From contig CM041778.1 of assembly GCA_023374045.1 (NCBI GenBank), positions 285,487,533-285,551,532 of the forward strand: 64,000 bases of DNA, in the 5' to 3' direction. The stretch's first letter is position 1, and each line of letters begins with the position of its first letter. The notes below the pieces were generated by a model, which made no database searches, was not told the DNA's origin, and saw only the letters and a program-made list of their open reading frames with translations. Made by a program: the position numbers and the translations under genes. Positions 10,202 through 36,828 of this stretch are shown here, in pieces. The stretch is from Limonium bicolor. Its lineage: Eukaryota; Streptophyta; Magnoliopsida; Caryophyllales; Plumbaginaceae.

Positions 10202-10206
10202 AAAAG

Positions 10207-10218
10207 TGGTATCAGAGC
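10207..10218 (+). promoter_or_regulatory. Primer-binding site (tRNA-iMet) of TE-B1
   Basis: TGGTATCAGAGC, complementary to the 3' end of plant initiator tRNA-Met, five bases after the LTR. The sequence overlaps a perfect 10-bp stem: ATCAGAGCGA (10211-10220) with TCGCTCTGAT (10225-10234), loop of four bases. Confidence 0.9.
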
Positions 10219-11089
10219 GAAGTATCGCTCTGATGATTAGACTCTTAAGTGTAGTGATTACCGAGTTAGGATTTCAACCGTCATAAGACGGATATTTAGA
10301 AACCTAACTAGGAACTACCGTTGTTAACAACGGATACCCTTAACGTCTGCAAGGACGATACCATTGCTTGAATGAAGACCATGAGGTCATAGTATCACAA
10401 CATCTAATGTAATCCACACTTGTTCAGATGTCAGGACGAGGTCGAGGCCGACCTAGAGGAGAGACATCTGATGGACCGGGCGCGCAGACGATAGCTGAGA
10501 TCGTCGCCGCCACGGTAGCGCAGATGCTACCGCAAGTAATCACGGCTGTACAGCAAACACAGCAAACAAGCAGCAGCAGCAGCAACCCGACCCACCTCAT
10601 CCCCGAGAAACGAATTGGGTGAAAGCTGTCGCCGACCTTCGACCTGCTTGTTTTAGAGGCGAGAGCGACCCCGCCAAGCTCGAGGCCTACCTCTCCGAGA
10701 TGGAGACGGCCTTCGAGACACTTGAGACTCCCGCTGGAGTTCGAGTGAGGATAGCTGCGTACTACCTGAAAGACGCGGCTATGGACTGGTGGAAGCTCGT
10801 TAAGGCCGAGCACATAGCTGATCCTGCATTCGGATGGGAAGCATTCACCTCTCTTCTCCGAACTAAGTACTACCCCGAGCATGTCAAGACCAAGAAAAGG
10901 CTTGAGCTCGATGCACTAAAGATGACCGAGAAGATGACGGTTGATGAGTATTACCGCACCTTCACCTCTCTTCTCCGACTTCTACCCGACCTTGGGTATA
11001 CCGGCCAAGTCTTGGTCGACCGCTTCTACGGCGGATTGAGCCATCGACTCCGGTATGGCATGGGCTTCACTCGGTTTACCTCCCTTCAG

Positions 11090-11176
11090 GTAAACAAGTT
11101 GAACCCTTAAAAAGCCATGAGTAATGTGAATTAGTATTCCCGTATGTAACTGTAACCTAATGCCTAAGTAATTCAG
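11090..11176 (+). other. Intron-like interruption 1 in gag
   Basis: 87 bp, CAG/GTAAAC at the donor and AATTCAG/GAG at the acceptor, AT-rich, with an in-frame stop. Removing it joins the residues TSLQ and ECYHAA in phase 0. Present at the same place in TE-B2 (23937-23852). No transcript data are available here. Confidence 0.65.
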
Positions 11177-11451
11177 GAGTGTTACCACGCTGCATCTCGA
11201 GTTGAGATCACCTGCCAGCTGAGAGATGAGGAACAAGCGCTGAAGCGCAAGGTGAGCGGCAAGGGTAACCCTCCGATGAAAAAACCAATCCAAACCCTGG
11301 AAGAAAAGGAAGGGGAAGCACTCCCACCAGCAGAAGAATACATCCGGAGACGGCGGTGCCCATGCTGAGAAGGGCAAGGCAACTGAGCCTTTACAGATTG
11401 CCTACACCGCACCAGTGGCAGCTAAGCCACTGAGGTCTCAGCCCTACAGGG

Positions 11452-11544
11452 GTAAGAAACCGAAACCGAATTAGTACACTTGTGAAATTGTAAGTATATA
11501 GAGTATTGTAAGTATACCAAACCTTGCTAACTTGAAAGCTATAG
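11452..11544 (+). other. Intron-like interruption 2 in gag
   Basis: 93 bp, donor G/GTAAGA and acceptor GCTATAG/GT, AT-rich. Removing it joins QPYRG to SGFGQGK in phase 1, just ahead of the zinc knuckles. Same position in TE-B2 (21679-21587). Confidence 0.65.
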
Positions 11545-11944
11545 GTTCTGGATTTGGCCAAGGAAAGAACCAATCTGATGGCCGCAGCTACATCTGCCGT
11601 AACTGCAACAAGGATCATCCCGGCACAGATTGCCAAGGAAGGGAGATCCGCTGCTTCAATTGTCAGAAACCGGGCCACCGTGCCAATGCATGCCCGGAGA
11701 ACTCTAAGCCCAAGGGCAACTACCAGGGCTACAAGCAGCGTGAAGGCAAGGAGGTTGCATCTGGCGATGCTCATGCCCAGCACACCTCACAGGGACAGGG
11801 ATCCCGGGGTCCGCAGAAGGGCGCACCGCAGAGGCAGCCGGCCTTACACATCATAGACCGTGACGGGTCCGGGACTAAGTCCGGCCCAGGTAACTACCGT
11901 AACCTTTAATCCTTGAAAAGCATGTCTAAAGTAGTGAAGTAACT

Positions 11945-12317
11945 CCTATGACATTATATGTCACATAAACATTAGGTTAATTCCCCAACATTTTATAAAG
12001 CATTTTAATATATATTTGGTTAAATTTAATCATATAAGCTCTCGGCTTCCATCATCATACCCATATATCTTTATAAATTGTATCTTAACCACTTAAATCA
12101 TTACATGGCATTATAAGCCAACTTAATATATAGTAAGCTAAGCCAAGATGTTAATTTAACATTTACTACATAATTAAGTTTATTTAAACCCATCTCTTGT
12201 CCACAGTTAGTATTATAAGTAACAAAATAATATAGAAACTTTATAATATGCAAGGTTGTATACTTACTTGAATATCTAGCCAATCAAGCAGCCAAACACT
12301 ACTCCAATGTTCACGGC
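11945..12317. other. Unassigned AT-rich segment at the inversion junction
   Basis: 373 bp with no open frame of note and no similarity that I can see elsewhere in the window. Its right end is the target duplication ACGGC (12313-12317) of TE-B2, so it is the original DNA on the 3' side of the family-B insertion site. Its left end is the junction of the inverted duplication. Confidence 0.6.
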
Positions 12318-15300
12318 TGTAACACACCCCAACCGCTAATCCTTTCATAATCCTTTAATTCGTTCCCATACTTACCTTACTCGCAGCGGAATACCTGCTT
12401 ACTTGCTTACTCCCGGCGGGTGATACAACGCCGTTAGCCATCCAAGGCCAACAAGGCTACTACTACTTACTGTATCGGTCTGACGATTAGAATAAACCAA
12501 ATACATACTACATACTTTACAATGCCAAATACTTACTTACAATTGATTACCGAGTATCCGAGTTAGGCAAATTACATTCCATGACTACTTCCCAAAATGA
12601 AGATTTGTACAACCTCTCCTTACTATCCAATTAAGAGTTCAATGTCCAAAAAGGGGTACCACATGGTACACCGGCTACTCAAAAGCTCTAGCCGTGTACA
12701 ACTCGGTACACTCTTCTAATTCCTACTAACTACTCCAAAAAGAATTACATGCTGCCCTTACCCTACCTTCACGCCTCGCGGGTACCTGTGGAGTAAACAC
12801 ATTCCCCTAGGGGGTCAGCTTACGCTGCATATTATAACCGCATACCCCGCGTACTAGCGAGGGTACGCCAACTATTTGGTCGAGTACATGCGGTTCGTTT
12901 CATTCATACATACATACAAATGCTTCATACATCAATACATACATTCATTTTACCACGCATACATACATACAATGCATGCAAGGAATACATACAAGTCATT
13001 CATTCATAATTACCATACTCACCGCATCACGAGATACAATTCTCCAATACATACAGGTCTTGTTACCTTATTACACACCCGGGTTAATCGGGTGTTCAAT
13101 ACTTTTTACTCCGGGTCAATGACTTACAATAGTCAGACAATCACCATACAACCAATACTTACATTCTACATACTTTAACTTCCTTAAGTCGGTATGACCT
13201 CCGGGCAGGGAGTACTATCTCCCACCCCGGGCTTTGAGATGGCACACTAATCCAGGATACTACCCATACAAAGGGAATTAGTCCAAGGAAAAGATCATAG
13301 CCAGGATTCGGTTCCAACCTCTTGTGGTTCCTTATCCTCACGCGTGGCCGAAACTGTATCGGGCTTCTACTCATTCCATTACTCATTACTCATGTCAGGA
13401 GTTAGATTGTTAGGAATTAGTAGAAGTCCATACTTACTTTCCATACATACTTACAATACACATGTACTCATACTTACACATACACTCATTCTGCTCATAC
13501 ATACTCTCCTGAATATACAAACTATTCGTTCAAGAAGAATACAACAAGAACAATATAGTTCAAACACATTTATGTGCAATATAGATCCGATTCATGCATT
13601 TATCTTGTTGGTGATCACATAAGCACACAAATCGGGGTAACCAAGTTAGGATACAGGCATGAGGAATCATACCGTTCACCGTCGAATACGTTCTACCGTT
13701 TCCTTTGGGGATCAACTATCCGATTCCTATACATACATGAAGTAGTACGATCAATGATCTATTATTGATCTAACTTACTCCCTCATTAATACTTTCAATA
13801 TATACTTACTACTTCTTTACATTCATACTTGGTTATAAACCTTTCTTTTCTTTACTACCTACCTCACAACTTGTTTTCTTACAAAATTACTTACTTCCTT
13901 ACCATTATTACTCCATCAATGTGTATTACTACATATATATGCATACGGGTATATAGGAATATATATATGTACATATGATTGCTATAGTCATATGATTAAA
14001 CTTTTTTTTTTGTTTGACCCGACCGACCCACCCTGGGTCGGTCCCCTGGGTCGGTCGGGTGCAGAGACTCGATTACAGAAAATTTCAGACCGACCGACCC
14101 AGCCAGGGTCGGTCCACTGGGTCGGTCGGTTACAGAAAGAATCCGACTCAAAATTTCTGCTCGACCGACCCAGGCAGGGTCGGTCCCCTGGGTCGGTCGG
14201 CTGCAGAGACATTTCCACCTAAAGATTCCCACTCGACCGACCCGGACAGAGTCGGTCTCTGTGGTCGGTCGGCGGATGCGAAGCTTTCGGGATTGCTGAT
14301 TTTCGGGTCGACCGACCCTGCTAGGATCGGTCCTAGGGTCGGTCCAGCCCAGTGCTCATTTTAATTACTTATTTTGAATCCCAAACTCTACTCAATTCAC
14401 ACCCAATCTTTTCTACTCATTTCCACACATTTTTCCTACATGTTTTAAACACCATTTAAATCCTCTAATTCACCTTCGTTCATCCATCAAACTCATTGTT
14501 AAATCCATCAATCCACTTACCCCTTTTTCCTCCCTTCATTCCAGCACTTATACCAATTTTCTTTCTTCGTTGCTACAGATTTTCATTCAAACTTCTAACC
14601 TTCATTACTCTCTCAACTAATGCTACTCTTGGCATCTCAAATCATTACTCACATCCTAGTTCCAATCTCTAACTTACCCTCTTTCAAAATCTGTTACGAC
14701 TACTAAACCACCCATTTTTACACTCTTCTTCAAAATCTGTTACAAATGCGCCTAAGTCCTCAAATTCCTAAATGAATTTTGACATAGCCTCCCCTATATT
14801 TCTAACATTCTCCACACATTATTTCAGCCCACGAATACTCATCCTCTCAACCTGTTACACAATTCATCATTCTCACAATTCCCAACCTACCACAACAACA
14901 TAAAATCCTGCACACATACACACTTACTACCTAATGTTTTCCCAAGCTTTTAAAACTCATTTAAAAACTTCAAAACTGTTACAATATCATTCTTCATTGT
15001 ACTACAATACACTTGCTACTCATTACCCAATTCATTACTCATTTTGTTACTCCCAAAACTGTTACATTACAATGCACAAACTAACAAAGGTAAGAGTATT
15101 TACCTTGTCTTGTTAGGTTACTTTCTTTCTTTTCCTCTTCCTTCCTCCTCCTTTGTTCTCGGTCCCAATGAGACTCAACACACACAAGTGCTACAGCACC
15201 TACACATACACAATACCATTTAGTTTCATTTTATACTACCCTAGAATTTAAGTTTTAGGGTTTAGAAAGAAGGTTACCTTCCAATGAGTAGATGAAGCTC

Positions 15301-16266
15301 TTGCCTTGCAAGAGAACAAAATTCCTAGCCCACAAAAGAAGCCAAATCGGCTGGAGTAACAAAGGAGAAAGCATTCAAAAACTGAAAATGCTTAAAATGC
15401 AAACAAGGGCTAGAAATGATGGATTTTCGAATTTCTTTTTACCTCAAGATGATAAGGAGGTGAAGGTGCTTCTAATGGTGGTTTCAAATCTCCAAATGGT
15501 GGATACCCTCAAAAACGAAAATGGTCCTTTTCGATTTTTGGAAAGATAGAAATGCTCTCCTTGCCAAGGGTTCCATGGTGCTGTTTTTATATTTTTTTGG
15601 ACAAGTATGGAGCTAGAACAAGAAGAGAGAAGGAGGGAGTTTTGTGGTTGTTCTCATTTCTCCATGGCTGCGCAGGAACAAGAAGGGAGTTCAGAAAATA
15701 GAGAAAGAGAGGAAGGAGAGGAGGGCTACGTGAGTGAAGAGGGAAAAGTGAGGTTTAGGAGAGAGAGTGTTAATTTTTCCTCTCTTTATTCCCTTGTCTT
15801 TTAGCTAATAAGAGGGAAATAATGAGAGTGAGAGAGGGAGGGTGCTGGCCGCCCCCTACAACACACACACACAATCAGATTTTTGCTTTTATTTGCAAAG
15901 TGGACACACTAAGTTTGTTTAATTGCATTCTCACCCCCACACTTACCGGTTGTTACAGTTCTTACTAACCGGTACCCGTTTTCCGGAATTTTCTCGTTTA
16001 ATTAATTTTATTGGCTCTAAAGCTTCACTAATATTTATTAGTGACTATTTAGTTGACCAAAATTGTTACGATCTATTTGACCCGCTTAAAGTCACGTTTT
16101 CCCGGTTTCCTCGAAAAACGCGCTTTAAGGTTCGTTTATGCTTTTAACCCATTTTAAAGGTCCGTTTTCTTCGGGATTTGTTCCCTCGTATTTATTTTAG
16201 TGTAATTAAGCCTTTAAAAATACAATTAGCCTAATTAATCACTGTTTTTAATTACGGGGTATTTCA
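12318..16266 (-). repeat. 3' LTR of TE-B2
   Basis: 3,949 bp, TGAAAT at 16266 to TTACA at 12318 on the minus strand. Preceded (in the sense of transcription) by the polypurine tract. The end adjoining the target duplication has a two-base insertion (TGTAACACACCCC on the plus strand). Confidence 0.92.
14016..14345. repeat. Five-hairpin array, TE-B2 3' LTR
   Basis: Same GACCGACCCAG/CTGGGTCGGTC units as at 8169-8503, in reverse orientation, five units. One stem near 14240-14273 has changes in one arm only. Confidence 0.88.
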
Positions 16267-16292
16267 ATCTACCCCCTTAAGAAACTTTGCCC
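16267..16292 (-). promoter_or_regulatory. Polypurine tract of TE-B2
   Basis: Minus strand AAGTTTCTTAAGGGGGTAGA directly before the 3' LTR, the expected plus-strand primer site. The core TTAAGGGGG is shared with TE-C (33445-33468) and TE-F (44768-44785). Confidence 0.8.
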
Positions 16293-16781
16293 TCAAAGTT
16301 GCTCAAGGTTACCGTTTACCATTTTTACTCATTTGGCAATTCAATTGCCACAATACATTCTACTACCACCTTACAAGGTGTTCACAATTCTTACACTACC
16401 AGCATACGCAATTCAGATACCAAGGCACATACTTAGTTCAAATACCATACGCAATACTCAATCCATACATAATACTTCATTCAATTCATACAATCATACC
16501 ATACACATTCGCAATACTTCACAATGTCATTCGTGTCATCTACCGTACGACACTGATGCATTACTCATTACATACATACCATACACATCGTACTACATAC
16601 CAAATACTGCTAGCACTACTTTGTGCCAATACAATACACTTAGCACTACATGTGCCAACCAAAATACAATTACATACATACCTACTATGCAATGCTAATC
16701 CGAAGCAATGCAAAGCAAAAGGCTCTACCCCCTTAAAAGGGGTACGCCCCGTACCCTCCGTGCTATACGGATACTAGACAT

Positions 16782-18228
16782 CTAGTCTACGAATAGATTC
16801 GGGTACTTCGCCTTCATGGCGTCCTCTAATTCCCAAGTCGCTTCCTCGACGTCGTGGTTAGACCACAAGACCTTTACCATTCGTACAGATTTATGGCGAG
16901 TGTCTCTTGTCTTCGTATCAAGGATTCGCAATGGAGTCTCGACATATCTCATCGTCGGCTCTAGGGATAAGTGTTCGGGTTCTAATACATGAGAGGGATC
17001 GGCTATGTATTTCTTGAGTTGTGATACATGAAAGACATCCTGAACACGCCCCAATTCTTCAGGCAATGCTAGCCTGTAAGCTACGGCTCCAATCCTCTCG
17101 GTAATGGCTTACGGGCCTACGAATTTCGGGCTCAGCTTGCCCTTTTGGCCAAATCGAAGACAACCCTTCATAGGTGAGACACGCAAGAACACTTGGTCGC
17201 CCACGCGAACTCAAGGTCGCGTCGTCGCACATCCGCATAGGATTTCTGTCTATCTTGGGCTGCCTTCATATTAGCTCGGATTTGTTGTACCTCAGCTTGT
17301 ACTTGTTCCAAATACTCCGGTCCTATGATGACCGCTTCGCTTGACTCATCCCAACACAACGGGGTACGGCAAGGTCTACCATACAAAGCTTGGAAGGCGA
17401 CATCTTAATCGATGCATGATAGCTATTGTTATACGAAAACTCGATAAGATGAAGCTTCTCTATCCAGCTCCCCTGGAAGTCTAAGGCACATGCCCTTAGC
17501 ATATCCTCTAGTGTTTGGATGGTCCTTTCTGTCTGACCGTCGGTCTGTGGATGGAAGGCGGTGCTAAGCTTCAACTCAGTACCAAGCGCTTCCCGTGTTG
17601 CTCTCCAGTATCTCGAAAGAAATCTGGTGTCGCGGTCAGATACAATGGTTTTAGGGACCCCGTGGTGTCGGATGATCTCCTTGTCGAATAGCTCTGCGAG
17701 CTTCGCCACCTTCCAGGTGTCCTTCATCGGTATGAATCGGGCAACCTTGGTGAGGCGATCGACTACTACCCAGATCATGTTGAGTCCTCCCCTGGCAGGT
17801 GGGAGTCCAACAACAAAATCCATAGAGATATCGTGGAATTTCCACTCCGGAATGGGCATGGATTGCACCATTCCTCCCGGTCTTCGGTGCTCAAACTTCA
17901 CCTTCTGGCATGTGAGACACCTCAGAACATACTCAGTCATGTCTGACTTCATCCCTGACCACCAGAAGTACCTCTTCATGTCTTTGTACATTTTAGAGGC
18001 TCCCGGATGGACGTGCAATGTCGAACAATGTGACTCACGCAGAATGCGATCCCTTAGCTCAGCATTGCTTCGGGGGACGCATAATCTGCCATTCAAGCGG
18101 ATCAGACCATCTTCATTCATGCAGTTTGAAGTCGTACTTCCGGCGCTCGAAGGTACCATCTGTAATTTTCTGTCTGATCTCTGTGAAGTAAGGGTCGCTC
18201 GCTCACTGAGCGTCTCGCACCTCGTCAA
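16782..18228 (-). pseudogene. Integrase and chromodomain of TE-B2 pol
   Basis: Integrates the cDNA into host chromatin. N-terminal zinc-binding part with HVHPGASKMYKD, FWW and a CLTC pair near 17900-18070. The catalytic core shows the D of [10 protein letters not shown], the D of VSDRDTRF and the E of [16 protein letters not shown]. The C-terminal part contains [10 protein letters not shown], then a chromodomain with [19 protein letters not shown] near 16800-16880 and a stop at 16782. Chromodomains of this lineage direct insertion towards marked heterochromatin (family knowledge). The frame changes near 17390, 17180 and 17090, so it is broken as assembled. It follows RNase H directly. Confidence 0.85.
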
Positions 18229-18291
18229 CCAAGCTAGAAGAAGCGAGTAGCGAATGGAGCGAGTGTGCTCGACGACTCAGGGCGTCGGCTA

Positions 18292-19583
18292 CTACGTTTG
18301 CCTTCCCTTCTTTATACTGGAGGTTGATGTCGTAATCCGAGAGGAACTCCATCCACCTCCTCCTCTGCTTAGGTTCAATTCTTTCTGGGTGAATACGTAC
18401 TGTAGACTTTTGTGGTCGGAATAGATGGTGATGCTTACCCCATAGAGATAGTGTCGCCATATCTTCAAGGCGAAGACAATGGCTCCTAACTCTAGATCAT
18501 GTGTCGGGTAATTCTCCTCATGCTTTTTCAGCTGGCGAGAAGCATAGGCTACTACCTTGCCATGCTGCATGAGTACACATCCCATACCCTTGCCTGATGC
18601 ATCACAGTACACCTCAAATCCCTCTGTGCCCTCTGGAAGAGTAAGGACGGGCGCTGAGGTCAGTGAGTCTTTCAGTTTCTGAAATGATAGCTCGCACTCC
18701 TCTGTCCATACAAAGGGTGCATCCTTCTTCATCAATGCCGTCATGGGCTTAGCGACTTTCGAGAAGTCCTTTACAAACCTCCGGTAATAACGGCTAAACC
18801 AAGAAAGCTCCGGATGTCGGTAACAGTCCTAGGTCTAGGCCATGATCGCACTGCTTCAATTTTGGATGGGTCTACTGAAATGCCCGCGCTCGAGATGACA
18901 TGACCGAGGAATGATACCTGATCTAGCCAAAACTCGCATTTGGAGAACTTCGCATACAGCTGTTCTCGCGCAGTGTCTCAAGTACTTTTCTCAAGTGGTT
19001 TTCATGCTCTTCTGGTGACTTCGAATACACAAGAATGTCGTCAATGAATACTACTACCGAAGTGTCCAGCTGATCACTGAATAACCGATTCATTAGGTCC
19101 ATGAATTTGGCTGGTGCATTAGACAAACCGAATGGCATCACCGTGAATTCGTAGTGGCCATATCTTGTTCGGAATGCTGTTTTTTGAATGTCTTGCTCTT
19201 TGACAGCAATTTGGTGGTAACCAGATCGGAGATCAATCTTAGAAAAGACGGATGCTCCCTTCAACTGATCGAACAGGTCGTCGATGCGTGGCAATGGGTA
19301 CTTGTTCTTTACAGTGACCGCATTCAATTCGCGCGTAGTCGATGCAGAGGCGGAGACTACCGTCCTTCTTCTTCACGAAGAGGACAGGTGCTCCCCAGGG
19401 TGATACGCTCGGGCGTATAAACCCTTTGTCGAGAAGATCATGTAACTGTTCCTTGAGTTCTGCCATTTCTGCCGGTGCCATACGGTATGGTGCCCTAGCG
19501 ATGGGACCAGTACCCGGTACAAGATCGATTTCAATTCTACCGCCCTCTGTGGTGGCATACCAGGTAGCTCTTTCGGAATACAT
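18292..19583 (-). pseudogene. Reverse transcriptase and RNase H of TE-B2 pol
   Basis: Copies element RNA into cDNA and degrades the RNA strand. RT motifs in order: [70 protein letters not shown] and the catalytic FIDDILVYS. After a frame change comes RNase H, with [47 protein letters not shown] and [11 protein letters not shown]. All diagnostic catalytic acids are visible. Frame changes near 19310, 18970, 18745 and 18340 mean that no single open frame covers it. Comparison with TE-C pol (34683-36719) shows the same domain order without those changes. Confidence 0.88.
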
Positions 19584-19607
19584 CAGGGAATTCTGAGACT
19601 ACTACTG

Positions 19608-20170
19608 CTACCTCGTCACTGAACTCTGGATCTCTCTCCAGGTCTTGCACGTGACATAAATACACTTCATGCCCTTTTCTGAGCTCCCGATACATTGCCA
19701 TGGCGGAGATGACTGTAGTTGAAGGCTCTCTCTCGGTCTCTGGCGGTATGAAACAGTGACCCCAGATGGACTCTTGAGCAGCAATCGGTGCTCGGCGCAT
19801 AGGATTCTCCCCTTGTGCCGCTCCAACCAGTTCATTCCAATAATTAAGTCGAATCCCAATCCGTTGAATTCGATGAAGGAAATGGGAAACGCTTCACCTT
19901 TGATTTGAATGGTGGCTGATTTGTAATACTTGGTACATTGTACCCGCTCCTTCGATGGGAGAGTAACCAAGAAGTTTGGTAGCTCATCCGCATCTAGCCC
20001 CAACTTCTTCACAAGAGATGGCGATATGAAGGTGTGAGAGGCGCCGGAGTCAAATAATACTGAGGCTTCGATGCCGTTTACTGGGAAGGTTCCCGTTAGA
20101 ATGGTGCCGCTCTTGCCGGCTTGTTCTTCGGTGAGGATACTCAGGTTACCTTCGGTACCGAGTCCACAAC
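19608..20170 (-). pseudogene. Aspartic protease of TE-B2
   Basis: Cleaves the Gag-Pol polyprotein. The frame opens just after a possible acceptor (CAATAG/GTTGTGG, exon from 20170) and reads through an acidic lead to the active site LFDSGASHTFIS near 20045-20075, the DSG triad of retroviral-type proteases. It then has IEFNGLGFDLIIGMNWL, the second conserved region, and SEFPDVF leading to RT. The protein frame has no obvious start ATG near 20170, which fits expression as a fusion with gag after splicing or frameshifting. A frame change lies near 19700-19800. Confidence 0.82.
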
Positions 20171-21240
20171 CTATTGATTCATGAGATTATAAGTAAAGAT
20201 GGTGGAACGCAAGTGGATTTAATAACCAACACTTGCTTTTATTGAATAGCCACCATCATACATACTGTGTCTCTAATACACGTTATACTACTGGATTACA
20301 TGCTACTACAAATTAATACTTTCTAAAGGTAAGGTTGAGGCGTCCTGGTATCATGTGTGTGACATTGATTATTGCCGGTGGTGCCGTATTCAACTTGATC
20401 TTCTGGATCCCGTGATACAGCATCCTTGATTTTCCACCCATGATTAGAACATCTCCTGATCTCAACAACAATTTTTCTGCGAGGTCCACACGCTTCCGCT
20501 CGCTATACAAAAATACGGCGTCATCACCAATGGACCAAGACACTACGGGCACTCCTAGTTCAAGAGATTCCGCTGTCTCGTCCTTGTCTTGGTGTAAGCC
20601 AAGTCGTCCTTCTTTCTCATAGAAGTTGACGATACACAGATCTGCTTCAAGTGCAGGGATTGGTTCATCTTCACATTGTTGTGCAATTTCTACAGCTTGT
20701 GTGACAAGCGTTTGGAATTCTGGGGGTATTGCTGGAGGTGTTGCTCCGTCTCCTGCTCGCGTTGTTTGGTATGTCTTGGTATAAGGGTTCCAGTCCTTTC
20801 CCAAGCACATCATTTTCAGCTTCATTGTAGCTCCACCGGGGAATTCGGGTGTATAAAATCCTCCTGGACCCGTTCCTAACTCGTTGCATCGACGGATGAT
20901 TGAAATTTGTGTGCTCGGTGTCAGTATCCTTTTAATAAGATCATACCTGGGCGGATGACCTGACACTGTTCGTTGTTGAAGTGGTGGTTGGCGATGTCGG
21001 TTCTCTCATAAGGTGAGTTTGAAGGTATTGGGTAACAGATATGGAATTTCCCTAAGGTGGTAAATTCATCTAGAATAAGTTCTAGGCTTACTAATTCATT
21101 TCATGCTCAATGCATACTTCCACGTTACTTATTCATGCTCAATTTCATACTTCAAGTATGTACGCATTCATACATTTACTCATACAGTTACTTCACTACT
21201 TTAGACATGCTTTTCAAGGAGTAAAGGTTACGGTAGTTAC
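20171..21240 (-). other. Intron-like interval 3 containing the AlkB ORF
   Basis: Begins after the gag knuckle with CCCAG/GTAACT (intron base 1 at 21240). A possible acceptor CAATAG at 20171 has a pyrimidine-rich lead. Removing the whole 1,070 bp fuses gag to the protease lead in phase 1. Inner acceptors could instead join gag to AlkB: TTATTCTAG ending at 21070 is in frame with the upstream AlkB-like stretch, and TTATGAG ending at 21005 is in frame with the 20966 ORF. The donor is also present in TE-B1 (11890). The splicing itself is an inference. Confidence 0.5.
20313..20966 (-). CDS. AlkB/ALKBH1-like Fe(II)/2-oxoglutarate dioxygenase carried by TE-B2
   Basis: 217 residues from a GTG to the stop TAA at 20315-20313. 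AlkB enzymes oxidatively remove methyl groups from N1-methyladenine or N6-methyladenine in nucleic acid. Visible in order: CNELGTGPGGFYTPEF and MKLKMMCLGKDWNP (nucleotide-recognition lid, residues 27-60), CIVNFYEKEGRLGLHQDKDE (111-130, iron ligands H125 and D127), SGDVLIMGGKSRMLYHGIQ (160-178, third ligand H175), and PGRLNLTFRKY (197-207, 2-oxoglutarate-binding R199 and R205). All catalytic residues are intact. It has no introns and resembles the plant ALKBH1 type most. Similarity seems to continue upstream of 20966 in the neighbouring frame (CQVIRPGMILLK, 20930-20970), so a one-base loss at the A4 run 20930-20933 may hide the true N-terminus. It lies between the gag zinc knuckle and protease, same strand, and is not found in standard chromoviruses. 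Confidence 0.9.
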   Translation of the reverse strand: MSGHPPRYDLIKRILTPSTQISIIRRCNELGTGPGGFYTPEFPGGATMKLKMMCLGKDWNPYTKTYQTTRAGDGATPPAIPPEFQTLVTQAVEIAQQCEDEPIPALEADLCIVNFYEKEGRLGLHQDKDETAESLELGVPVVSWSIGDDAVFLYSERKRVDLAEKLLLRSGDVLIMGGKSRMLYHGIQKIKLNTAPPAIINVTHMIPGRLNLTFRKY

Positions 21241-21586
21241 CTGGGCCGGACTTAGTCCCGGACCCGTCACGGTCTATGATGTGTAAGGCCGGCTGCCTCT
21301 GCGGTGCGCCTTCTTCTGACCCCCCGGGATCCCTGTCCCTGTGAGGTGTGCTGGGCATGAGCATCGCCAGATGCAACCTCCTTGCCTTCACGCTGCTTGT
21401 AGCCCTGGTAGTTGCCCTTGGGCTTAGAGTTCTCCGGGCATGCATTGGCACGGTGGCCCGGTTTCTGACAATTGAAGCAGCGGATCTCCCTTCCTTGGCA
21501 ATCTGTGCCGGGATGATCCTTGTTGCAGTTACGGCAGATGTAGCTGCGGCCATCAGATTGGTTCTTTCCTTGGCCAAATCCAGAAC
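21241..21586 (-). pseudogene. gag: gag exon 3 of TE-B2 (zinc knuckles)
   Basis: Encodes GSGFGQGKNQSD, CRNC...HPGTDC and CFNCQKPGHRANAC, the RNA-binding knuckles, then a basic and glutamine-rich tail that ends at the donor of interval 3. One frame change in the tail relative to TE-B1 (a G-run near 21320). It is followed by the AlkB ORF. Confidence 0.8.
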
Positions 21587-22648
21587 CTATAGCTTTCAAG
21601 TTAGCAAGGTTTGGTATACTTACAATACTCTATATACTTACAATTTCACAAGTGTACTAATTCGGTTTCGGTTTCTTACCCCTGTAGGGCTGAGACCTCA
21701 GTGGCTTAGCTGCCTGCAAACGATTTATTTGGTGTATTAAAAACTAAGAAATAATCCTAGAATTCAATAGTTCAATATATCGTCAGGTTGCAAAAATCCC
21801 GGTCGAAATAGTGTAGTAATTTAATGAAGCGACCAGGGTGTCAATCCACGGGACTCGATAAGTAAGTCTAGCCTTAGGTATTGGTTAACTTAAAAGGTTT
21901 TTTGTTTTGGTTTGGGTTGCAAATAAATAACAAGAAAGTAAATAGCAGATAAATAAAGTGATAGTCTTGGAGTGTGAACGGTACTCTAGGTTCAGGGAGT
22001 TGTTTCACTAGCTAGGTTCTGCATATTCTCTACCGCTTAAGTGAGACTTGGATCGGCTTGTAATTCTCAATTATCTATTCTGTATTAAGTCTTAATTCCA
22101 GATAGCTCATCTAGACAGGGCAAGTAGTTCTAGTCTAGACCTAGCAAGTATATCTAGATGGCTTTAATGCACAGAATTACTAGTCTGGTTGGTTCAATCC
22201 GGACTAAAGCTCCTAGTGACTAAAGTAATCTATCCGATTGCAATGATCACAGGTAACAGGTTAATAGGACCATCAATGCTAATCACCTTATCTGATCATA
22301 ACATGATTCGAGGGCTTATAATAACTTAGCAACGTTTATTAAAAGCACTTAAAAGCATTAACCTGAACAATCCAAATTGTCTCAACAAGCAGCAAAATAA
22401 TGCAGAGTTTAACTATTACAACATCCCTTCCCCTAGAGTAAATCCTCTTAGCTAGACATAGCAATTATAATCATAAATGAGAGAGAGTTAGAAGAAATCA
22501 TCTGTTATAAGGATCTTCTTGCTCGCTCCGTCCTTTGTCCTTGCGCCGTGCTAGCTTGAAGGTTGATCTTGGTGATAATGGAGTGAACTGGGTGAAATGG
22601 GGCGAAATGGAAGTTTTGGTGAGTTTTGTGAGGTGTCCAGATCAACAG

Positions 22649-22795
22649 GGTCGGACGCGATCCGGACAAGTGTAAATAGGTGTGTCCGGCTCAACAGGGT
22701 CGGACGCGATCCGGACAAGGGTCGGACACGATCCGGACAAGGGTCGGACACGATCCGGACGAGGGTCGGACACGATCCGGACAAGGGTCGGACAC
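22649..22795. repeat. CGGACA tandem repeat in the solo LTR
   Basis: About five copies of a 22-bp unit GGTCGGACACGATCCGGACA with an internal inverted repeat (TCGGA...TCCGA type). A second cluster of TCCGGCC/GGCCGGAC words lies at 23290-23370. Confidence 0.8.
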
Positions 22796-23017
22796 GGCTA
22801 AATGAGGCGTATGAGTACGGGATGTGTGTATGAATGACCGATGAATATTACGGAGGTTTTGGTGAATGAATACGGGATATGTCGTGAGTGAGCGATGCAG
22901 TTTATGGAGGGGAATTGATGAATGGATACGGAGTGTGAATGAGAGGGTATGCAGTGAGGGAGAGATGATCCTTAGACTCTGAAGTCTGGGACAATTTGGA
23001 CTAAAGGCTGTGCTGGG

Positions 23018-23027
23018 TTTATATAGG
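23018..23027 (-). promoter_or_regulatory. TATA box in the solo LTR
   Basis: Minus strand CCTATATAAA, followed downstream by CCCAGCACAG. It is a plausible promoter core that would transcribe leftwards into the remaining TE-B2 gag. Confidence 0.5.
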
Positions 23028-23610
23028 CTTAGAGGGGGGAACAAGGGTTAGTGAAAGTTTGGTATGCTTTGTGAGTGGAGAGTTTGATTGAGCATGGAGC
23101 GTAGATTAATCAATGTTGCAGTGCGCCGCTCCCCTGTCTTCTTATTGCGCCGTCTGATAATTAGCCGAAAGGCTAATTATCTGTGCGTGCCTTTTTATTT
23201 TTCAATTCTGTGTGACGTCTGGATCGTGTCCGGATCCGACGTGACACAGAGTTTTAGATCTGAAACGTGAACTCCGGATCTGGATTTTTTAGTCATGTCC
23301 GGCTTGCGTCCGGCCAAACAGACCCGGACAAGAGATGTCCGGATTTGTGTCCGGCCAAACAGAGCCGGACAAGACCAATTTTTTGTCTCTTCTCCTGATT
23401 TGTTCCCCGTTTGTTGTGTTGTAATCCTTATGATGTATAATCTTTATTTCCTGGGTTTTTTCCTGTATTTAACATATATAACACATCAATTCTTATCAAA
23501 ACATCAATCTTAGGAAAAACCATAATAAGTGGGAAACATTGCCTGAATCGTTACAAATTATAAGGTATTTAAACCCTAAAAAGCCTATATGTTTCACACT
23601 TATCACTGCC

Positions 23611-24598
23611 CACTGGTGCGGTGTAGGCAATCTGTAAAGGCTCAGTTGCCTTGCCCTTCTCAGCATGGGCACCGCCGTCTCCGATGTATTCTTCTGCTGG
23701 TGGGAGTGCTTCCCCTTCCTTTTCTTCCAGGGTTTGGATTGGTTTTGTTCATCGGAGGGTTACCCTTGCCGCTCACCTTGCGCTTCAGCGCTTGTTCCTC
23801 ATCTCTCAGCTGGCAGGTGATCTCAACTCGAGATGCAGCGTGGTAACACTCCTGAATTACTTAGGCATTAGTTACAGTTACATACGGGAATACTAATTCA
23901 CATTACTCATGGCTTTTTAAGGGTTCAACTTGTTTACCTGAAGGGAGGTAAACCGAGTGAAGCCCATGCCATATCGGAGTCGATGGCTCAATCCGCCGTA
24001 GAAGCGGTCGACCAAGACTTGGCCGGTATACCCAAGGTCGGGTAGAAGTCGGAGAAGAGAGGTGAATGCGGTAATACTCATCAACCGTCATCTTCTCGGT
24101 CATCTTAAGTGCATCGAGCTCAAGCCTTTTCTTGGTCTTGACATGCTCGGGGTAGTACTTAGTTCGGAGAAGAGAGGTGAATGCTTCCCATCCGAATGCA
24201 GATCAGCTATGTGCTCGGCCTTGATGAGCTTCCACCAGTCCATAGCCGCGTCTTTCAGGTAGTACGCAGCTATCCTCACTCGAACTCCAGCGGGAGTCTC
24301 AAGTGTCTCGAAGGCCGTCTCCATCTCGGAGAGGTAGGCCTCGAGCTTGGCGGGGTCGCTCTCGCCTCTAAACAAGCAGTCGAAGGTCGGCGACAGCTTT
24401 CACCCAATTCGTTTCTCGGGGATGAGGTGGGTCGGGTTGCTGCTGCTGCGCTGCTGCTGTGTTTGCTGTGTTTGCTGTACACCGTGATTACTTGCGGTAG
24501 CATCTGCGCTACCGTGGCGGCGACGATCTCAGCTATCGTCTGCGAGCCCGTCCATCAGATGTCTCTCCTCTAGGTCGGCCTCGACCTCGTCCTGACAT
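23611..24598 (-). pseudogene. gag: gag exons 1-2 of TE-B2 (capsid)
   Basis: ATG at 24598, same start as TE-B1. The capsid domain has FETLETPAGVRVRIAAYYL and WWKL, then FYGGLSHR-like sequence, interrupted by intron-like stretch 1 at 23937-23852 and by several one-base losses (for example near 24378 and 24030) relative to TE-B1. The remainder of exon 2 continues on the far side of the solo LTR (21709-21680). As assembled it cannot yield capsid protein. Confidence 0.8.
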
Positions 24599-24805
24599 CT
24601 GAACAAGTGTGGATTACATTAGATGTTGTGATACTATGACCTCATGGTCTTCATTCAAGCAATGGTATCGTCCTTGCAGACGTTAAGGGTATCCGTTGTT
24701 AACAACGGTAGTTCCTAGTTAGGTTTCTAAATATCCGTCTTATGACGGTTGAAATCCTAACGGTAATCACTACACTTAAGAGTCTAATCATCAGAGCGAT
24801 ACTTC

Positions 24806-24817
24806 GCTCTGATACCA
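24806..24817 (-). promoter_or_regulatory. Primer-binding site (tRNA-iMet) of TE-B2
   Basis: Minus strand TGGTATCAGAGC, five bases from the LTR. The perfect 10-bp hairpin over the PBS seen in TE-B1 is conserved here. Confidence 0.9.
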
Positions 24818-24822
24818 CTTTT

Positions 24823-27800
24823 TGTAACACCCCAACCGCTAATCCTTTCATAATCCTTTAATCGTTCCCATACTTACCTTACTCGCAGCGGAATACCTGC
24901 TACTTGCTTACTCCCGGCGGGTGATACAACGCCGTTAGCCACCAAGGCCAACAAGGCTACTACTACTTACTGTATCGGTCTGACGATTAGAATAAAGCAA
25001 ATACATACTACATACTTTACAATGCCAAATACTTACTTACAATTGATTACCGAGTATCCGAGTTAGGCAAATTACATTCCATGACTACTTCCCAAAATGA
25101 AGAGTTTGTACAACCTCTCCTTACTATCCAATTAAGAGTTCAATGTCCAAAAAGGTGTACCACATGGTACACCGGCTACTCAAAAGGCTCTAGCCGTGTA
25201 CAACTCGGTACACTCTTCTAATTCCTACTAACTACTCCAAAAAGAATTACATGCTGCCCTTACCCTACCTTCACGCCTCGCGGGTACCTGTGGAGTAAAA
25301 ACATTCCCCCTAGGGGGTCAGCTTACGCTGCATATGATAACCGCATACCCGCGTACTACGAGGGTACGCCAACTATTTGGTCGAGTACATGCGGTCGTTT
25401 CATTCATACATACATACATGCTTCATACAATGCAATACAATACATTCATTTTACCACGCATACATACATACAATGCATGCAAGGAATACAATACAAGTCA
25501 TTCATTCATAATTACCATACTCACCGCATCACGGAGATACAATTCTCCAATACATACAAGGTCTTGTTAGCCTTATTACACACCCGGGTTAATCGGGTGT
25601 TCAATACTTTTACTCCGGGTCAATGACTTACAATAGTCAAGACCAATACAACACAATACTTACATTCTTACATACTTTACTTCCAGTTAAGTCGGTATGA
25701 CCTCCGGGCAGGGAGTACTATCTCCCACCACCGGGGCTTTGAGATGGCACACTAATCCAGGATGCTACCCATACAAAGGGAATTAGTCTAAGGAAAAGAT
25801 CATAGCCAGGATTCGGTTCCAACCTCTTGTGGTTCCTTATCCTCACGCGTGGCCGAAACTGTATCGGGCTTCTACTCATTCCATTACTCATTACTCATGT
25901 CAGGAGTTAGATTGTTAGGAATTAGTAGAAGTCCATACTTACTTTCCATACATACTTACAATACACATGTACTCATATACTTACACATACACTTCATTCT
26001 CATACATACATCTCATGATTATACAAACTATTCGTTCAAGAAGAATACAACAAGAACAATATAGTTCAAACACATTTATGTGCAATATAGATCCGATTCA
26101 TGCATTTATCTTGTTGGTGATCACATAAGCACACAAATCGGGTAACCAAGTTAGGATACAGGGCATGAGGAAATCATACCGTTCACCGTCGAATACGTTC
26201 TACCGGTTCCTTTGGGGATCAACTATCCGATTCCTATACATACATGAAGTAGTACGATCAATGATCTATTATTGATCTAACTTACTCCCTCATTAATACT
26301 TTCAATATATACTTACTACTTCTTTACATTCATACTTGGTTATAAACCTTTCTTTTCTTTACTACCTCACAAACTTGTTTTCTTACAAAATTACTTACTT
26401 CCTTACCATTATTACTCCATCAATGGTGTATTACTACATATATATGCATACGGGTATATAGGCATATATATATGTACATATGATTGCTATAGTCCATATG
26501 ATTAAAACTTTTTTTTTTGTTTGACCCGACCGACCCACCCTGGGTCGGTCCCCTGGGTCGGTCGGGTGCAGAGACTCGATTACAGAAAATTTCAGACCGA
26601 CCGACCCAGCCAGGGTCGGTCCACTGGTCGGTCGGTTACAGAAAGAATCCGACTCAAAATTTCTGCTCGACCGACCCAGGCAGGGTCGGTCCCCTGGGTC
26701 GGTCGGCTGCAGAGACATTTCCACCTAAAGATTCCCACTCGACCGACCCGGACAGAGTCGGTCTCTGGGTCGGTCGGATGCAGAAGCTTTCGGGATTGCT
26801 GATTTTCGGGTCGACCGACCTGCTAGGATCGGTCCTAGGGTCGGTCCAGCCCAGTGCTCATTTTAATTACTTATTTTGAATCCCAAACTCTACTCAATTC
26901 ACACCCAATCTTTTCCTACTCATTTCCACATGTTTCCTACATGTTTAAAACACCATTTAAATCCTCTAATTCACCTTCGTTCATCCATCAACTCATTGTT
27001 AAATCCATCAATCCACTTACCCCATTTTTTCCTCCCTTCATTCCAGCACTTATACCAATTTTCTTTCTTCGTTGCTACAGATTTTCATTCAACTTCTACC
27101 TTCATTACTCTCTCAACTAATGCTACTCTTGGCATCTCAAATTCATTACTCACATCCTAGTTCCAATCTCTTAACTTACCTCTTTCAAAATCTGTTCGAC
27201 TACTAAACCACCCATTTTTACACTCTTCAAAATCTGTTACAAATGCGCCTAAGTCCTCAAATTCCTAAATGAATTTTGACATAGCCTCCCCTATATTTCT
27301 AACATTCTCCACACATTATTTCAGCCACGAATACTCATCCTCTCAACCTGTTACACAATTCAATCATTCTCACAATTCCAACACTACCACAACAACATAA
27401 AATCCTGCACACATACACACTTACTACCTAATGTTTTCCCAAGCTTTTAAAACTCATTTAAAAACTTCAAACTGTTACAATATCATTCTTCATTGTACTA
27501 CAATACATTGCTACTCATTACCCAATTCATTACTCATTTTATTACTCCAAAAACTGTTACATTACAATGCACAAACTAACACAAGGTAAGAGTATTTACC
27601 TTGTCTTGTTAGTTGTTACTTTCTTTCTTTCTTTTCCTCTTCCTTCCTCCTCCTTTGTTCTCGGTCCCAATGAGACTCAAACACACACAAGTGCTACAGC
27701 ACATACACATACACAATACCATTTAGTTTCATTTTATACTAACCCTAGAATTTAAGTTTTAGGGTTTAGAAAGAAGGTTACCTTCCAATGAGTAGATGAA

Positions 27801-28770
27801 GCTCTTGCCTTGCAAGAGAACAAAATTCCTAGCCCCCAAAAGAAGCCAAATCGGCTGGAGTAACAAGGAGAAAGCATTCAAAAACTGAAAATGCTTAAAA
27901 TGCAAACAAGGGCTAGAAATGATGGATTTTCGAATTTCTTTTAACCTCAAGATGATAAGGAGGTGAAGGTGCTTCTAATGGTGGTTTCAAATCTCCAAGG
28001 TGGATACCCTCAAAAACGAAAATGGTCCTTTTCGATTTTTTGGAAAGATAGAAATGCTCTCCTTGCCAAGGGGATTCCAATGGTGCTATTTTTATATTTT
28101 TTGGACAAGTATGGAGCTAGAACAAGAAGAGAGAAGGAGGGAGTTTTGTGGTTGTTCTCATTTCTCCATGGCTGCGCAGGAACAAGAAGGGAGTTCAGAA
28201 AATAGAGAAAGAGAGGAAGGAGAGGAGGGCTACGTGAGTGAAGAGGGAAAAGTGAGGTTTAGGAGAGAGAGTGTTAATTTTTCCTCTCTTATTCCCTTGT
28301 CTTTTAGCTAATAAGAAGGGAAATAATGAGAGTGAGAGAGGGAGGGTGCTGGCCGCCCCCTACACACACACACAATCAGATTTTTGCTTTTTATTTGCAA
28401 AGTGGACACACTAAGTTTGTTTAATTGCATTCTCACCCCACAACTTACCGTTGTTCACAGTTCTTACTAACCGGTACCCGTTTTCCGGAATTTTCTCGTT
28501 TAATTAATTTTATTGGCTCTAAAGCTTCACTAATATTTATTAGTGACTATTTAGTTGACCAAAATTGTTACGAGTCTATTTGACCCGCTTAAAGTCACGT
28601 TTTCCCTGTTTCCTCGAAAAACGCGCTTTAAGGTTCGTTTTATGCTTTTAAAACCCATTTTAAAGGTCCGTTTTCTTCGGGATTTGTTCCCTCGTATTTA
28701 TTTTAGTGTAATTAAGCCTTAAAAATACAATTAGCCTAATTAATCACTGTTTTAATTACGGGGTATTTCA
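24823..28770 (-). repeat. 5' LTR of TE-B2
   Basis: 3,948 bp, matched to the 3' LTR (12318-16266) throughout. The outer end is followed by target duplication ACGGC at 28771-28775. Differences between the LTRs are mostly one-base indels. Confidence 0.92.
26525..26848. repeat. Five-hairpin array, TE-B2 5' LTR
   Basis: Same five-unit GGTCGGTC inverted-repeat array as at 8169-8503 and 14016-14345. Confidence 0.88.
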
Positions 28771-29923
28771 ACGGCTAGCATATAAATAGTCTTAGGTTAG
28801 TTTTTGAGTATCAAACCATATATACCCTTAATTAATATAATTTAGGTAGTAAATTAACTTACTTTGATATTTAAGCTTGGATTTAATTTTCCACCATTTG
28901 TGCAAAATTTTTTCCCTAATTGACAGCACCATTCTGCCATATAAATGCAAGGGAAAGCACATGTATTAGTTCATGTGACATCAACAACCAATCAAGATTT
29001 TATGAGCTTAGAATGTCATGATTTACCTATATATATAGAGCTGGGTAGTGGCCCTTTCCTCGCCAGAAATTTTGGAGTTAAGAGGGTGTTAAAACACCAC
29101 ACAAACCAGCATAATAACCGGTAGTGACCAGGTGAGGAAATGTCAAAGTTTTACCTTATTATAAAGGCTTAAAAATGGAGTTCTCAGGCCACATGACACA
29201 ACACTTGGAGAGGTTCATATGTGTACCGAATGATTACACAAAAAGAAGCAAAATGAGCTGGAGAAAGTCTAGAACAAAACCCGTAATTAAAGGAAGAAAA
29301 AAGAGTATGTTTAATGCATATTTTTCTACCTTAGTATTCTCTTAGATGAGCTATGCTCCTCCTCTGATTTTTCCACCAAGAGCCACTCATTTTCCAGCAC
29401 AAACTCACACCAAATGGCTGGATGGAGGTAAGAATAGATGAGCCCAAGGTAAAGAGGAAGAAGAGAGGAAGAAGATGGACATAAACAAGACTTAAGAGCT
29501 TACCTATGTCAAGAGATCTCATCGATGGAGGTGGGTGTTCTTCTCGGTTTGAAAGAGGAAGAAGAGGGGGTTTGAGCTGAAGGAAAAACGGCTGGAATGA
29601 GAAGGAATGAAGTAGGGAATTCTACTTTGGCTTGTAAAAGTAAAATAAGATTACTTTAGCTAATAGTGTTAGGTGAGTCATCCAAGATATTTTTGGAGGT
29701 TTCTTCATGCTAGGGGAATCCTCTTAAGTGGCCGGAAGCATGGAGTCAAGGTGATAAGGTAGATTTGACTTAATTTAATTAGTAAATGATAGTTATCTTA
29801 TTTTATAAAAAGGTTACCTATGTGTCATATATATACATATTGGTACCGGCTACAAGGTGAGATTAATGCCTTAAGTTGGCGGCAATAAGTGGTCGTAGCC
29901 AAAGAGCAAGTTTTGACCATTAA
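28771..29923. other. Flank segment, inverted copy of 5103-6252
   Basis: AT-rich, with no gene recognised. It matches 5103-6252 in reverse with scattered substitutions and small indels. Confidence 0.55.
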
Positions 29924-31164
29924 TGAAATACCCCGAAATTAAAAATAATGATTAATTACTAATTATGATTTTAGAGGCTTGATTACATCTAAATAAACAT
30001 GAGGGTACAACACTCGAAGAAAACAGATCCTTAAAACGAATTAAAAGCACAAAACCCTAAAGCGTGTTTTCAATGAAACCGGGAAAACACGACTTTAAGC
30101 GGGTTAAATAAACCCGTAATAATTTTAGTCAATCAAATGTCTATATTCAGACATTAGTGAAGGTCTAGAACCAATAAAATTAATTAAATGAGAAAATTCC
30201 GGAAAACGGGTTCTGATTAGTGAGTAATGTAAAACAAGAAATTGTGGGGTGATAAGCGTAATAAGAGCAAACTATTCTGTGCCACTTGCAAATAAAAATT
30301 AAAAATCTGTAGAGTGTGTGTGGTGTGGCCGGTTCCCTCCCCCTCTATCACTCTTTTATTTGCTATTAGACACATAAAGACAAAACAATAAAAGAAAAGA
30401 AAAGTAAATAAGTACAATACTCACCTTTTGAGTATCTCTCCTACCCATTCTCTTGCTCTCTCTCACACGTTCGCACTCCCCCACCTGAACTCTCTTCCTC
30501 CCCAAGCTTGCTAATGGCTATTTTGTAGAGTTCACACAGCCCACCTCTTGCTCTTCATTTTTCTTGGCCAAAATCAACTCCAAATGCAAAGAAAATTACA
30601 CCACTAAACTCCTCTCTCCTTGGGAAACATTCCTCTCTTTTCAAAAATCAAAAAACACCACTTTCATTTCCATGGGTGTATCTCATTTTGAAGCTTGAAG
30701 ACTACCATTGGAAGCACCTTCATCCCCTTATCATTTTAAGGTAAAAAAGGAACCCAAAGTTCTTCCTTTCTAGCCCTCTCTTTCATCTTGGAAATTTTCC
30801 AGATTTTTAAACCTCCTTGTTGTGCCTTGCTTCAGCCAATTTTTGGCTCCTCCAAGAAGGTTCTGTGGCTTGCTGTTTTAAGGCTCAAAACTTCATCTAT
30901 AAGTTCCAAGGTAAAACTCTTTAGAGCTCTAAACCTTCCTTGTGTTCTAGGGCTAATTTTAGAGGTTTAGGGATTTCATTAATGCTCATTATCATTCTTT
31001 GGTATGGGCTGTAGCATTTCTGAAATTGTGAAGGAAGAACAAGAAAGAAGAAAAGAAGAAAGGAAAGGAAAGAAGCTAGCAAACTCAAGGTAAATAAGCT
31101 AACCCTTGAGCTAGCTTGTATGTAGAAGAAAAACAGAATTTTAGTGCTTAGTATTGAATAACTA
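29924..31164 (+). mobile_element. LTR-E fragment, inverted copy
   Basis: Begins TGAAATACCCCGAAATT and matches 5102-3863 in reverse. Interrupted at 31164 by TE-C. The expected continuation of LTR-E is not found on the far side of TE-C at 54600. Confidence 0.7.
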
Positions 31165-31277
31165 TGTAACACCCTGGATTTTGCCATAAAACATATATTA
31201 TTAAATTACAAAACCAACGGTGAAAACGGCTTCGAAAACGGACCCCAAACGAGGTCTGAAGGTGCAAAACAAGCCTG

Positions 31278-31606
31278 GTCCGAACTTGTGTCCGGACATG
31301 GGAAGCTCGGACACAAGTCGAGAGTTGAAAAGTCCGAAAATCAAAGGCGTCCGAACTTGTGTCCGGACTTCTAAGTTCGGACACAAGTCGAGTTTCAAAG
31401 TCCGAAAATTCTTACGCGGCGTGTCCGAACATTGGTCCGAGCTTACAAGTTCGGACATAAGTCGAGACTTGTAAGTCGGCCTCGTCCTCGCATGCTGTCC
31501 AAACATTGAAGTTCGGACAGAAGTTCGGACACAACAAAACAGCGGAAACTCAATAAACTCTCGCGGCCTGTCCGAACATGGATGTCCGGACGGACGTTCG
31601 GACAGG
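31278..31606. repeat. Five-hairpin array, TE-C 3' LTR
   Basis: GTCCGAAC/GTTCGGAC units with about 73-bp spacing, as at 3425-3753 but reversed. Confidence 0.85.

Positions 31607-33311: not shown

Positions 33312-33316
<5 letters not shown>

Positions 33317-33358
<42 letters not shown>
33317..33358. repeat. AT microsatellite
   Basis: About 20 AT dinucleotides. Shorter at the matching sites in the other two family-C LTRs (about 1686-1709 and 54493-54512). Confidence 0.9.
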
Positions 33359-33360
<2 letters not shown>

Positions 33361-33444
33361 TTCTCTGGGCCCTTAATAATTCTGTTAATAACATTCCCGA
33401 CCATATGCTAATTTAATCCTATGCCAAAATTCACGGATATTTCA

Positions 33445-34679: not shown

Positions 34680-34682
34680 CTT

Positions 34683-36719: not shown

Positions 36720-36759
36720 GGCAAATTAGATCAAATCTATTACAAATTGCTCCCCTTTG

Positions 36760-36764: not shown

Positions 36765-36828
36765 TGAAATACCCCTAAATTAATTTAGGGGATTTCTTTT
36801 ATTAAACCTTTAATAATACTATTAAGTA

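Follow-up and report, generated by a model that had tools for sequence, protein, structure and literature searches.

An ALKBH1-type AlkB gene between gag and protease, likely maintained by selection, in a chromodomain LTR retrotransposon family of Limonium bicolor

The stretch of Limonium bicolor DNA analysed here (64 kb, called the window) is plant DNA packed with LTR retrotransposons, and no tRNA and no Rfam family were detected in these 64 kb. The window contains a complete chromodomain Ty3/gypsy element (element A, 16.4 kb including a 1.9-kb insertion) that carries an AlkB gene, and a partial inverted second copy of it (copy B, 1598-11944 (+)). Element A has an LTR pair, a primer binding site, a polypurine tract and a 5-bp target duplication, as expected of a complete LTR retrotransposon, and it has the chromovirus order of gag, protease, reverse transcriptase, RNase H and integrase with a chromodomain behind the integrase; this chromodomain scores below its curated cut-off, and its stretch aligns at 58-59% with P0131 and P0173, both of which bear PF00385. 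We take the primer site TGGTATCAGAGC to be of the tRNA-Met type, which agrees with the label Tekay, a presumed assignment that goes back to the initial annotation. The AlkB frame is flanked on the same strand by the CCHC knuckle upstream and by protease, reverse transcriptase, RNase H, integrase, SH3-like and chromodomain-like stretches downstream (Table 1), and this domain order confirmed the initial annotation, which had placed an AlkB ORF between the gag zinc knuckle and the protease of an element named "TE-B2"; that element is the complete element A with a later 1.9-kb insertion in gag. No second AlkB was found elsewhere within the 64-kb window.

Table 1. Positions of the features of element A and of the predicted gag introns of copy B in the window (a slash in a motif marks a splice-like boundary).
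Feature	Position	Strand	Evidence or remark
Element A, carrying AlkB	12318..28770	-	LTR pair by self-BLAST, TG...CA ends, 5-bp target duplication GCCGT
5' LTR, 3.9 kb	24823..28770	-	97.85% identity with the 3' LTR across aligned bases; 63 gap events
3' LTR	12318..16266	-	self-comparison
Target site duplication GCCGT, 5' side	28771..28775	-	partner at 12313-12317
Primer binding site TGGTATCAGAGC	24806..24817	-	read as tRNA-Met type
Gag capsid region, two frames	23903..24554	-	PF03732 and PF19259, below curated cut-offs in element A
Gag CCHC zinc knuckle (gag exon 3 in the intron model)	21267..21629	-	PF00098, E=1.9e-6
Segment between gag and protease with AlkB inside, predicted as an intron or as alternatively used	20171..21240	-	donor CAG/GTAACT, acceptor AATAG/GTTGTGG
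AlkB N-terminal part in another frame (GKFHICYP...RPGMILLKGY)	20924..21051	-	behind TAG/G, which is present in 68/68 copies
AlkB (2OG-Fe(II) dioxygenase) open frame	20313..21005	-	230 codons between stops; the catalytic core begins near 20924
AATAAA after the AlkB stop codon, a possible poly(A) signal	20238..20243	-	68/68 copies
Protease frame	19608..20186	-	PF08284 (RVP_2), E=8.4e-29; exon would begin at 20170
Reverse transcriptase	18923..19372	-	PF00078, E=3e-29
RNase H	18292..18828	-	PF17919, PF17917
Integrase	17323..18276	-	PF17921, E=1.9e-18; PF00665, E=3.6e-6 (under its cut-off)
Integrase SH3-like end and chromodomain	16782..17108	-	PF24626, E=1.1e-12; PF00385, E=1.7e-4, 21.9 bits against a cut-off of 25.1
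Polypurine tract ahead of the 3' LTR	16268..16278	-	sequence
Predicted gag intron 1 (copy B), 87 nt	11090..11176	+	in-frame GT...AG, 34.5% GC
Predicted gag intron 2 (copy B), 93 nt	11452..11544	+	in-frame ends, 32.3% GC

The gag of element A is split by the insertion at 21715-23605, which has TG...CA ends and a 5-bp duplication of its own (GGCAG), is missing in copy B and is probably a solo LTR. Copy B stops at the gag stop, short of AlkB, and its gag capsid region is clear (10499-11110 (+)). The segment 1598-11944 (+) matches 21186-33444 (-) as an inverted copy of the 5' part of element A plus 4.7 kb past the LTR (about 98-99% identical over aligned bases), and this pair is either an inverted segmental duplication or an assembly artefact. 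Both LTRs of element A contain a 71-bp tandem repeat (14020-14273 and 26527-26785). Another chromodomain Ty3/gypsy element lies at 33550-36725 and 50799-51966 (-), split by a nested insertion; its named pol relatives of highest identity are from Cuscuta (71-76%), its gag runs intron-free in a single frame (two stops), and no AlkB was detected in this element. A 5.8-kb direct repeat at 36776-42533 and 44807-50560 (2.3 kb apart, 99.76% identical over aligned bases, 24 single-base indels vs 14 mismatches) may be a pair of long, very young LTRs that still contain assembly errors.

The open frame of 230 codons matches PF13532 (2OG-Fe(II) dioxygenase) at E=5.1e-42 (144.7 bits, cut-off 31.2), and the domain, the HxD...H and RxxxxxR residues, the asparagine and tyrosine near the iron site (N127 and Y129) and the fold together identify it as an AlkB. 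The initial annotation had described a single ORF at 20313..21069 coding for an apparently catalytically intact enzyme; the frame ends at 21005 instead, and 21051-20924 is read in another frame. P0002 aligned with window positions 21073-20924 at 44% over 50 aa (E=3.7e-9), which marks this stretch as the N-terminal continuation of AlkB, so that a frameshift lies near codon 23-26 of the 230 in the window copy. The cofactor residues named earlier are indeed present; numbered along the 230-codon frame, H138, D140 and H198 are the iron ligands, and R222 and R228 the arginines for 2-oxoglutarate (the earlier H175, R199 and R205 were ten too low relative to H125 and D127). The idea that catalysis was kept while pol decayed had to be given up for the window copy, since about 0.74 kb of AlkB with one frameshift and 3.3 kb of pol with about five frameshifts and at least two stops are broken at similar rates. 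Some of the broken frames of this copy are possibly assembly errors, on mixed evidence, because some repeat pairs of the window show single-base indels that rival or exceed mismatches (49 vs 84 for the LTR pair, 42 vs 37, and 24 vs 14) and others show few of them (26 vs 94, 7 vs 68, and 3 vs 34).

The closest solved structure by sequence was the rice protein 5xeg (E=3e-66), followed by E. coli AlkB and mammalian ALKBH1. An AlphaFold model of the window AlkB (pLDDT 85.6, pTM 0.84) gave the OsALKBH1 entries 5xoi and 5xeg as the best Foldseek matches (TM 0.86-0.90, 48-49% identity). In a search of 5.8 billion proteins, the four closest among the matches listed were P0001 (71%), P0002 (63%), P0003 (71%) and P0004 (61%), and the named relatives among the best 120 matches listed were all from plants, included ALKBH1C/D-like proteins and reached at most 55% identity. 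The initial assignment of the predicted enzyme to the ALKBH1 type of plants is therefore supported. A scan of IMG/VR returned two loci with a 29-residue match only and was dropped.

In a quickly built tree (SH-aLRT support alone, with ALKBH2-10 references left out), the window AlkB and P0001-P0004 formed one clade with support 99 and a long stem, the root of which is unsure because the clade adjoins two long branches, P0069 and P0120. The window AlkB and P0001 differed at 1/58 of the columns conserved in 113 host-like proteins, compared with 51/104 of the other columns; changes inside this clade avoid conserved columns. The element AlkB shares with plant ALKBH1 proteins (OsALKBH1 5xeg/5xoi, ALKBH1C/D-like) the fold, the cofactor residues and an FDIC-like motif before the core, and it differs from them in standing apart as a long-stemmed clade with distinctive residues and in lacking the longer N-terminus that most of the aligned host proteins have. 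The intron-free AlkB frame and the retained host-like FDIC motif suggest that the gene was captured from a host ALKBH1 mRNA.

When the pol domains of element A were compared with 240 proteins, P0139 was the best match in five domains (protease 58%, RT 85%, RNase H 82%, integrase 72%, chromodomain 72%). The AlkB protein P0002 and the pol protein P0139 come from contigs that are both sized 26561, and by this equal size alone they likely share one contig, which would be an AlkB-bearing element in another plant assembly. Among the best 120 matches listed, the P0139 search gave no pol on contigs sized 26621 or 9956.

A search of the 2.92-Gb host genome with the AlkB sequence gave 150 scored matches (85-100% identity) out of 55,828 loose candidates, and an internal stop was present in 12/150. 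We read 68 of these 150 copies, window copy included, and assigned them to a main (n=54) and a divergent subfamily (n=14); L059-L061 and L068 are intermediate and were counted in the main group. The knuckle was found upstream in 65/68 copies, the protease downstream in 67/68, and both on the same strand in 64/68, at distances from the AlkB core match of 354-562 nt and 134-302 nt, respectively, so that the place between gag and protease proposed at first for the window copy belongs to the element family. All seven tested cofactor residues were kept in 65/68 copies, in agreement with the earlier view of kept catalytic residues. An unbroken 210-codon frame from the conserved ATG was present in 24/68 copies (none of the 14 divergent copies and not the window copy), a number that is no estimate for the family because the query was itself frameshifted and favoured frameshifted copies. 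More generally, since the 68 copies were found by AlkB similarity, the intact fractions are biased and dN is somewhat lowered.

Between the main and the divergent subfamilies, the median dN of AlkB was 0.050 and the median dS 0.345 (ratio 0.144, 756 pairs), and the protease of the same copies gave 0.057 and 0.383 (ratio 0.149, 676 pairs from 65 covered copies). The ratio of medians in the main group was 0.304 for AlkB and 0 for protease (median dN 0), and within the divergent group it was 0.155 and 0.189, respectively; these counts include frameshifted copies (59/68 copies were free of frameshifts in the AlkB core and 36/65 in the protease). A second frame-anchored count, with the frame set on another copy, gave pN/pS of 0.179 for AlkB, 0.178 for protease and 0.234 for gag exon 3; at 0.656, the N-terminal stretch of AlkB is weakly constrained. 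The way in which copies were chosen could hardly hide neutrality, because a neutral gene at a dS of 0.35 would show a dN of equal size; the protease, which was not used for choosing copies, shows the same ratio. As the AlkB ratio matches that of the protease in the same copies, selection likely maintains AlkB in the element family, presumably purifying selection for the use of the element, and the dN/dS values support well a function of AlkB in the element. The initial annotation had held that absence of AlkB from the other members, or a dN/dS near 1 with catalytic residues lost, would make this a chance insertion of a host pseudogene; neither was found, and the dN/dS that it had proposed to measure among element-borne copies proved far below 1.

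The ends of the AlkB segment resemble splice sites, and joining them (20171-21240) puts gag and protease in frame. The donor core AG/GTAA, in the variants listed, was present in 48/54 main and 12/14 divergent copies and the acceptor TCAATAG/GTT in 68/68; the flanks of AlkB are AT-rich (34% GC). The donor phase count in gag exon 3 was 19, 16 and 11. The AATAAA behind the AlkB stop arises by base composition alone in 12% of shuffles of the AlkB segment and is thus weak by itself. The TAG/G ahead of the N-terminal stretch would, in the window, join gag to AlkB in frame. An in-frame ATG lies upstream of the conserved ATG in 8/14 divergent and 10/54 main copies, which makes a Gag-AlkB fusion just one possibility and weakens it as the sole route. 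In the divergent group, the N-terminal stretch showed 1 gap event in 14 copies, compared with 35 in 11 in the 5' flank and 41 in 13 in the 3' flank, which speaks for the stretch being coding; the main group showed 21 in 54, compared with 89 in 53 and 13 in 54, respectively, and the gap counts as a whole are mixed.

Two short introns were further predicted in gag (10429-11889 (+), copies L003-L070), and their splice sites are largely kept across the subfamilies; to our knowledge, gag introns are not expected in a chromovirus. In copy B, the GC content of the gag exons is 55.6-59.1%, well above that of the predicted introns (Table 1), and gag exon 2 is itself interrupted by a frame break. Gag proteins of other elements align over the first joined end in 9/11 matches and over the unjoined form in 0/5. 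The donor of intron 1 (CTTCAG/GTAAA) is kept in 59/59 copies covered, and the acceptor of intron 2 (AG/GTTCT) in 14/14 divergent copies, with a less clear donor. Divergence between the groups alone fails to set the introns apart (0.283 and 0.312), because gag exons 2 and 3 are about as diverged (0.288 and 0.258). Given conserved splice-like spacer ends that join gag and protease in frame, we predict that splicing probably yields Gag-Pol, with AlkB coming from another transcript.

Our preferred reading, held with a probability of roughly 0.6, is that this chromodomain LTR family carries between gag and protease an ALKBH1-type AlkB gene with a dN/dS as low as that of the protease, and that the predicted enzyme removes methyl groups from the element's own RNA. 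AlkB would be made from element transcripts, either from an AUG of its own or through splicing from gag, and by analogy with host ALKBH9B, which erases m6A-type marks from the RNA of the Arabidopsis element ONSEN (discussion of PMC9289625; PMC12786077, in excerpt), it may erase such marks from the genomic RNA before packaging. Much more tentatively, AlkB might be an alternative terminal exon within an intron between gag and protease, equipped with a separate acceptor, stop codon and poly(A) signal, such that splicing would pick either Gag-Pol or AlkB/Gag-AlkB and the nucleocapsid zinc knuckle would carry the eraser to the element RNA.

The next choice of substrate would be N6-methyladenine in single-stranded cDNA, and a possible, clearly less probable alternative is that the enzyme works on DNA, taking N6-methyladenine or alkylation damage off single-stranded cDNA or element R-loops in the manner of OsALKBH1, the nearest solved structure, which demethylates 6mA in ssDNA (PMC10469495, in the text available). 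Against a DNA substrate, the related ALKBH1L of tobacco demethylates m6A in RNA (PMC12736721, in excerpt), and the orchid precedent also acts on RNA (PMC9289625). It seems unlikely to us that the target is host RNA or chromatin, with a general relief of silencing, in place of the element's own nucleic acid; OsALKBH1 is nuclear and affects PRC2-mediated repression (same portion of PMC10469495), and a similar alternative is offered for the orchid element in PMC9289625.

We regard as quite improbable an action on the primer tRNA (m1A58 of tRNA-Met) that would shift the start or stop of reverse transcription. Such an action would suit the primer site of element A, presumably of the tRNA-Met type, and mammalian ALKBH1 acts on tRNA m1A. 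Against it, tRNA-Met is the most frequent primer type in plants (39%, PMC6317226), and the site therefore forms no special link to this substrate. Finally, a chance insertion of a host pseudogene, carried along without function, is very improbable and was rejected, since the frameshifted window copy in its broken element and the 44/68 copies without an unbroken frame from the conserved ATG are outweighed by the same position in 64/68 copies, the dN/dS of 0.144 and the cofactor residues kept in 65/68, and differences between the related proteins avoid conserved sites.

Several known systems resemble the present family in part. Ogre elements have an intron between gag-pro and RT, the splicing of which joins the polyprotein parts in some transcripts (excerpt of PMC6317226, citing its refs 68 and 69); the present family differs in clade and place, its segment holds a protein gene, its gag has two further predicted introns, and splicing is a prediction. 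The plant element BARE has separate RNA pools, one of which is spliced (PMC3735527, in excerpt). Additional frames of at least 250 codons before or after the polyprotein were sought in PMC6317226 (same excerpt), and sunflower Tekay elements have conserved additional frames at the 5' side, the Tekay frame matching no known domain; this differs from the AlkB between gag and protease here, and AlkB does not occur in the available portion of that article (PMC11728184). AlkB domains also occur in plant RNA viruses (PMC9289625); those of the Flexiviridae type are likewise mobile elements that bring their own AlkB, a likeness drawn from their description.

The nearest precedent is Gypsy_Pa_2799 of Phalaenopsis (Alvarado-Marchena et al. 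2022, PMC9289625), in which Ogre-type elements carry an ALKBH5/9B-like ORF2 that is active on m6A RNA in vitro; a screen of 121 angiosperm genomes found the AlkB domain only in two Phalaenopsis genomes (PMC9289625), and the case appears in the reference list of PMC11963269 (partial text). AlkB in a plant retrotransposon is thus already known as a kind, from one orchid lineage (PMC9289625). Among the matches listed in the open-licence PMC literature, we found no report of an ALKBH1-type enzyme in such an element or of AlkB in a chromodomain element. Both families are plant Ty3/gypsy elements in which an AlkB-domain gene with its cofactor residues was taken up and spread through the genome. The orchid element belongs to Ogre/Tat, with a second RNase H, a length of 25 kb, gag-pol in one frame and an AlkB of the ALKBH5/9B type in a separate 565-aa ORF2, whereas the present family has a chromodomain-like end, a single stretch of RNase H across the scanned frames, a length of 16.4 kb and an ALKBH1-like AlkB of about 210 aa from the conserved ATG inside the gag-pol region. 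As clade, enzyme type and position all differ, the capture looks independent of the orchid case. A likely second, independent capture (another clade, AlkB subfamily and place in the element) argues that the removal of methyl marks is a recurrent need of plant retrotransposons, and this need is measurable here because many copies exist in one genome, in two subfamilies about 0.35 synonymous substitutions apart. The family offers a natural system for asking if plants use m6A or 6mA to hold retrotransposons in check. If the alternative-terminal-exon arrangement were true, plant retrotransposons, the orchid elements included, would have responded to host RNA methylation repeatedly by capturing a demethylase.
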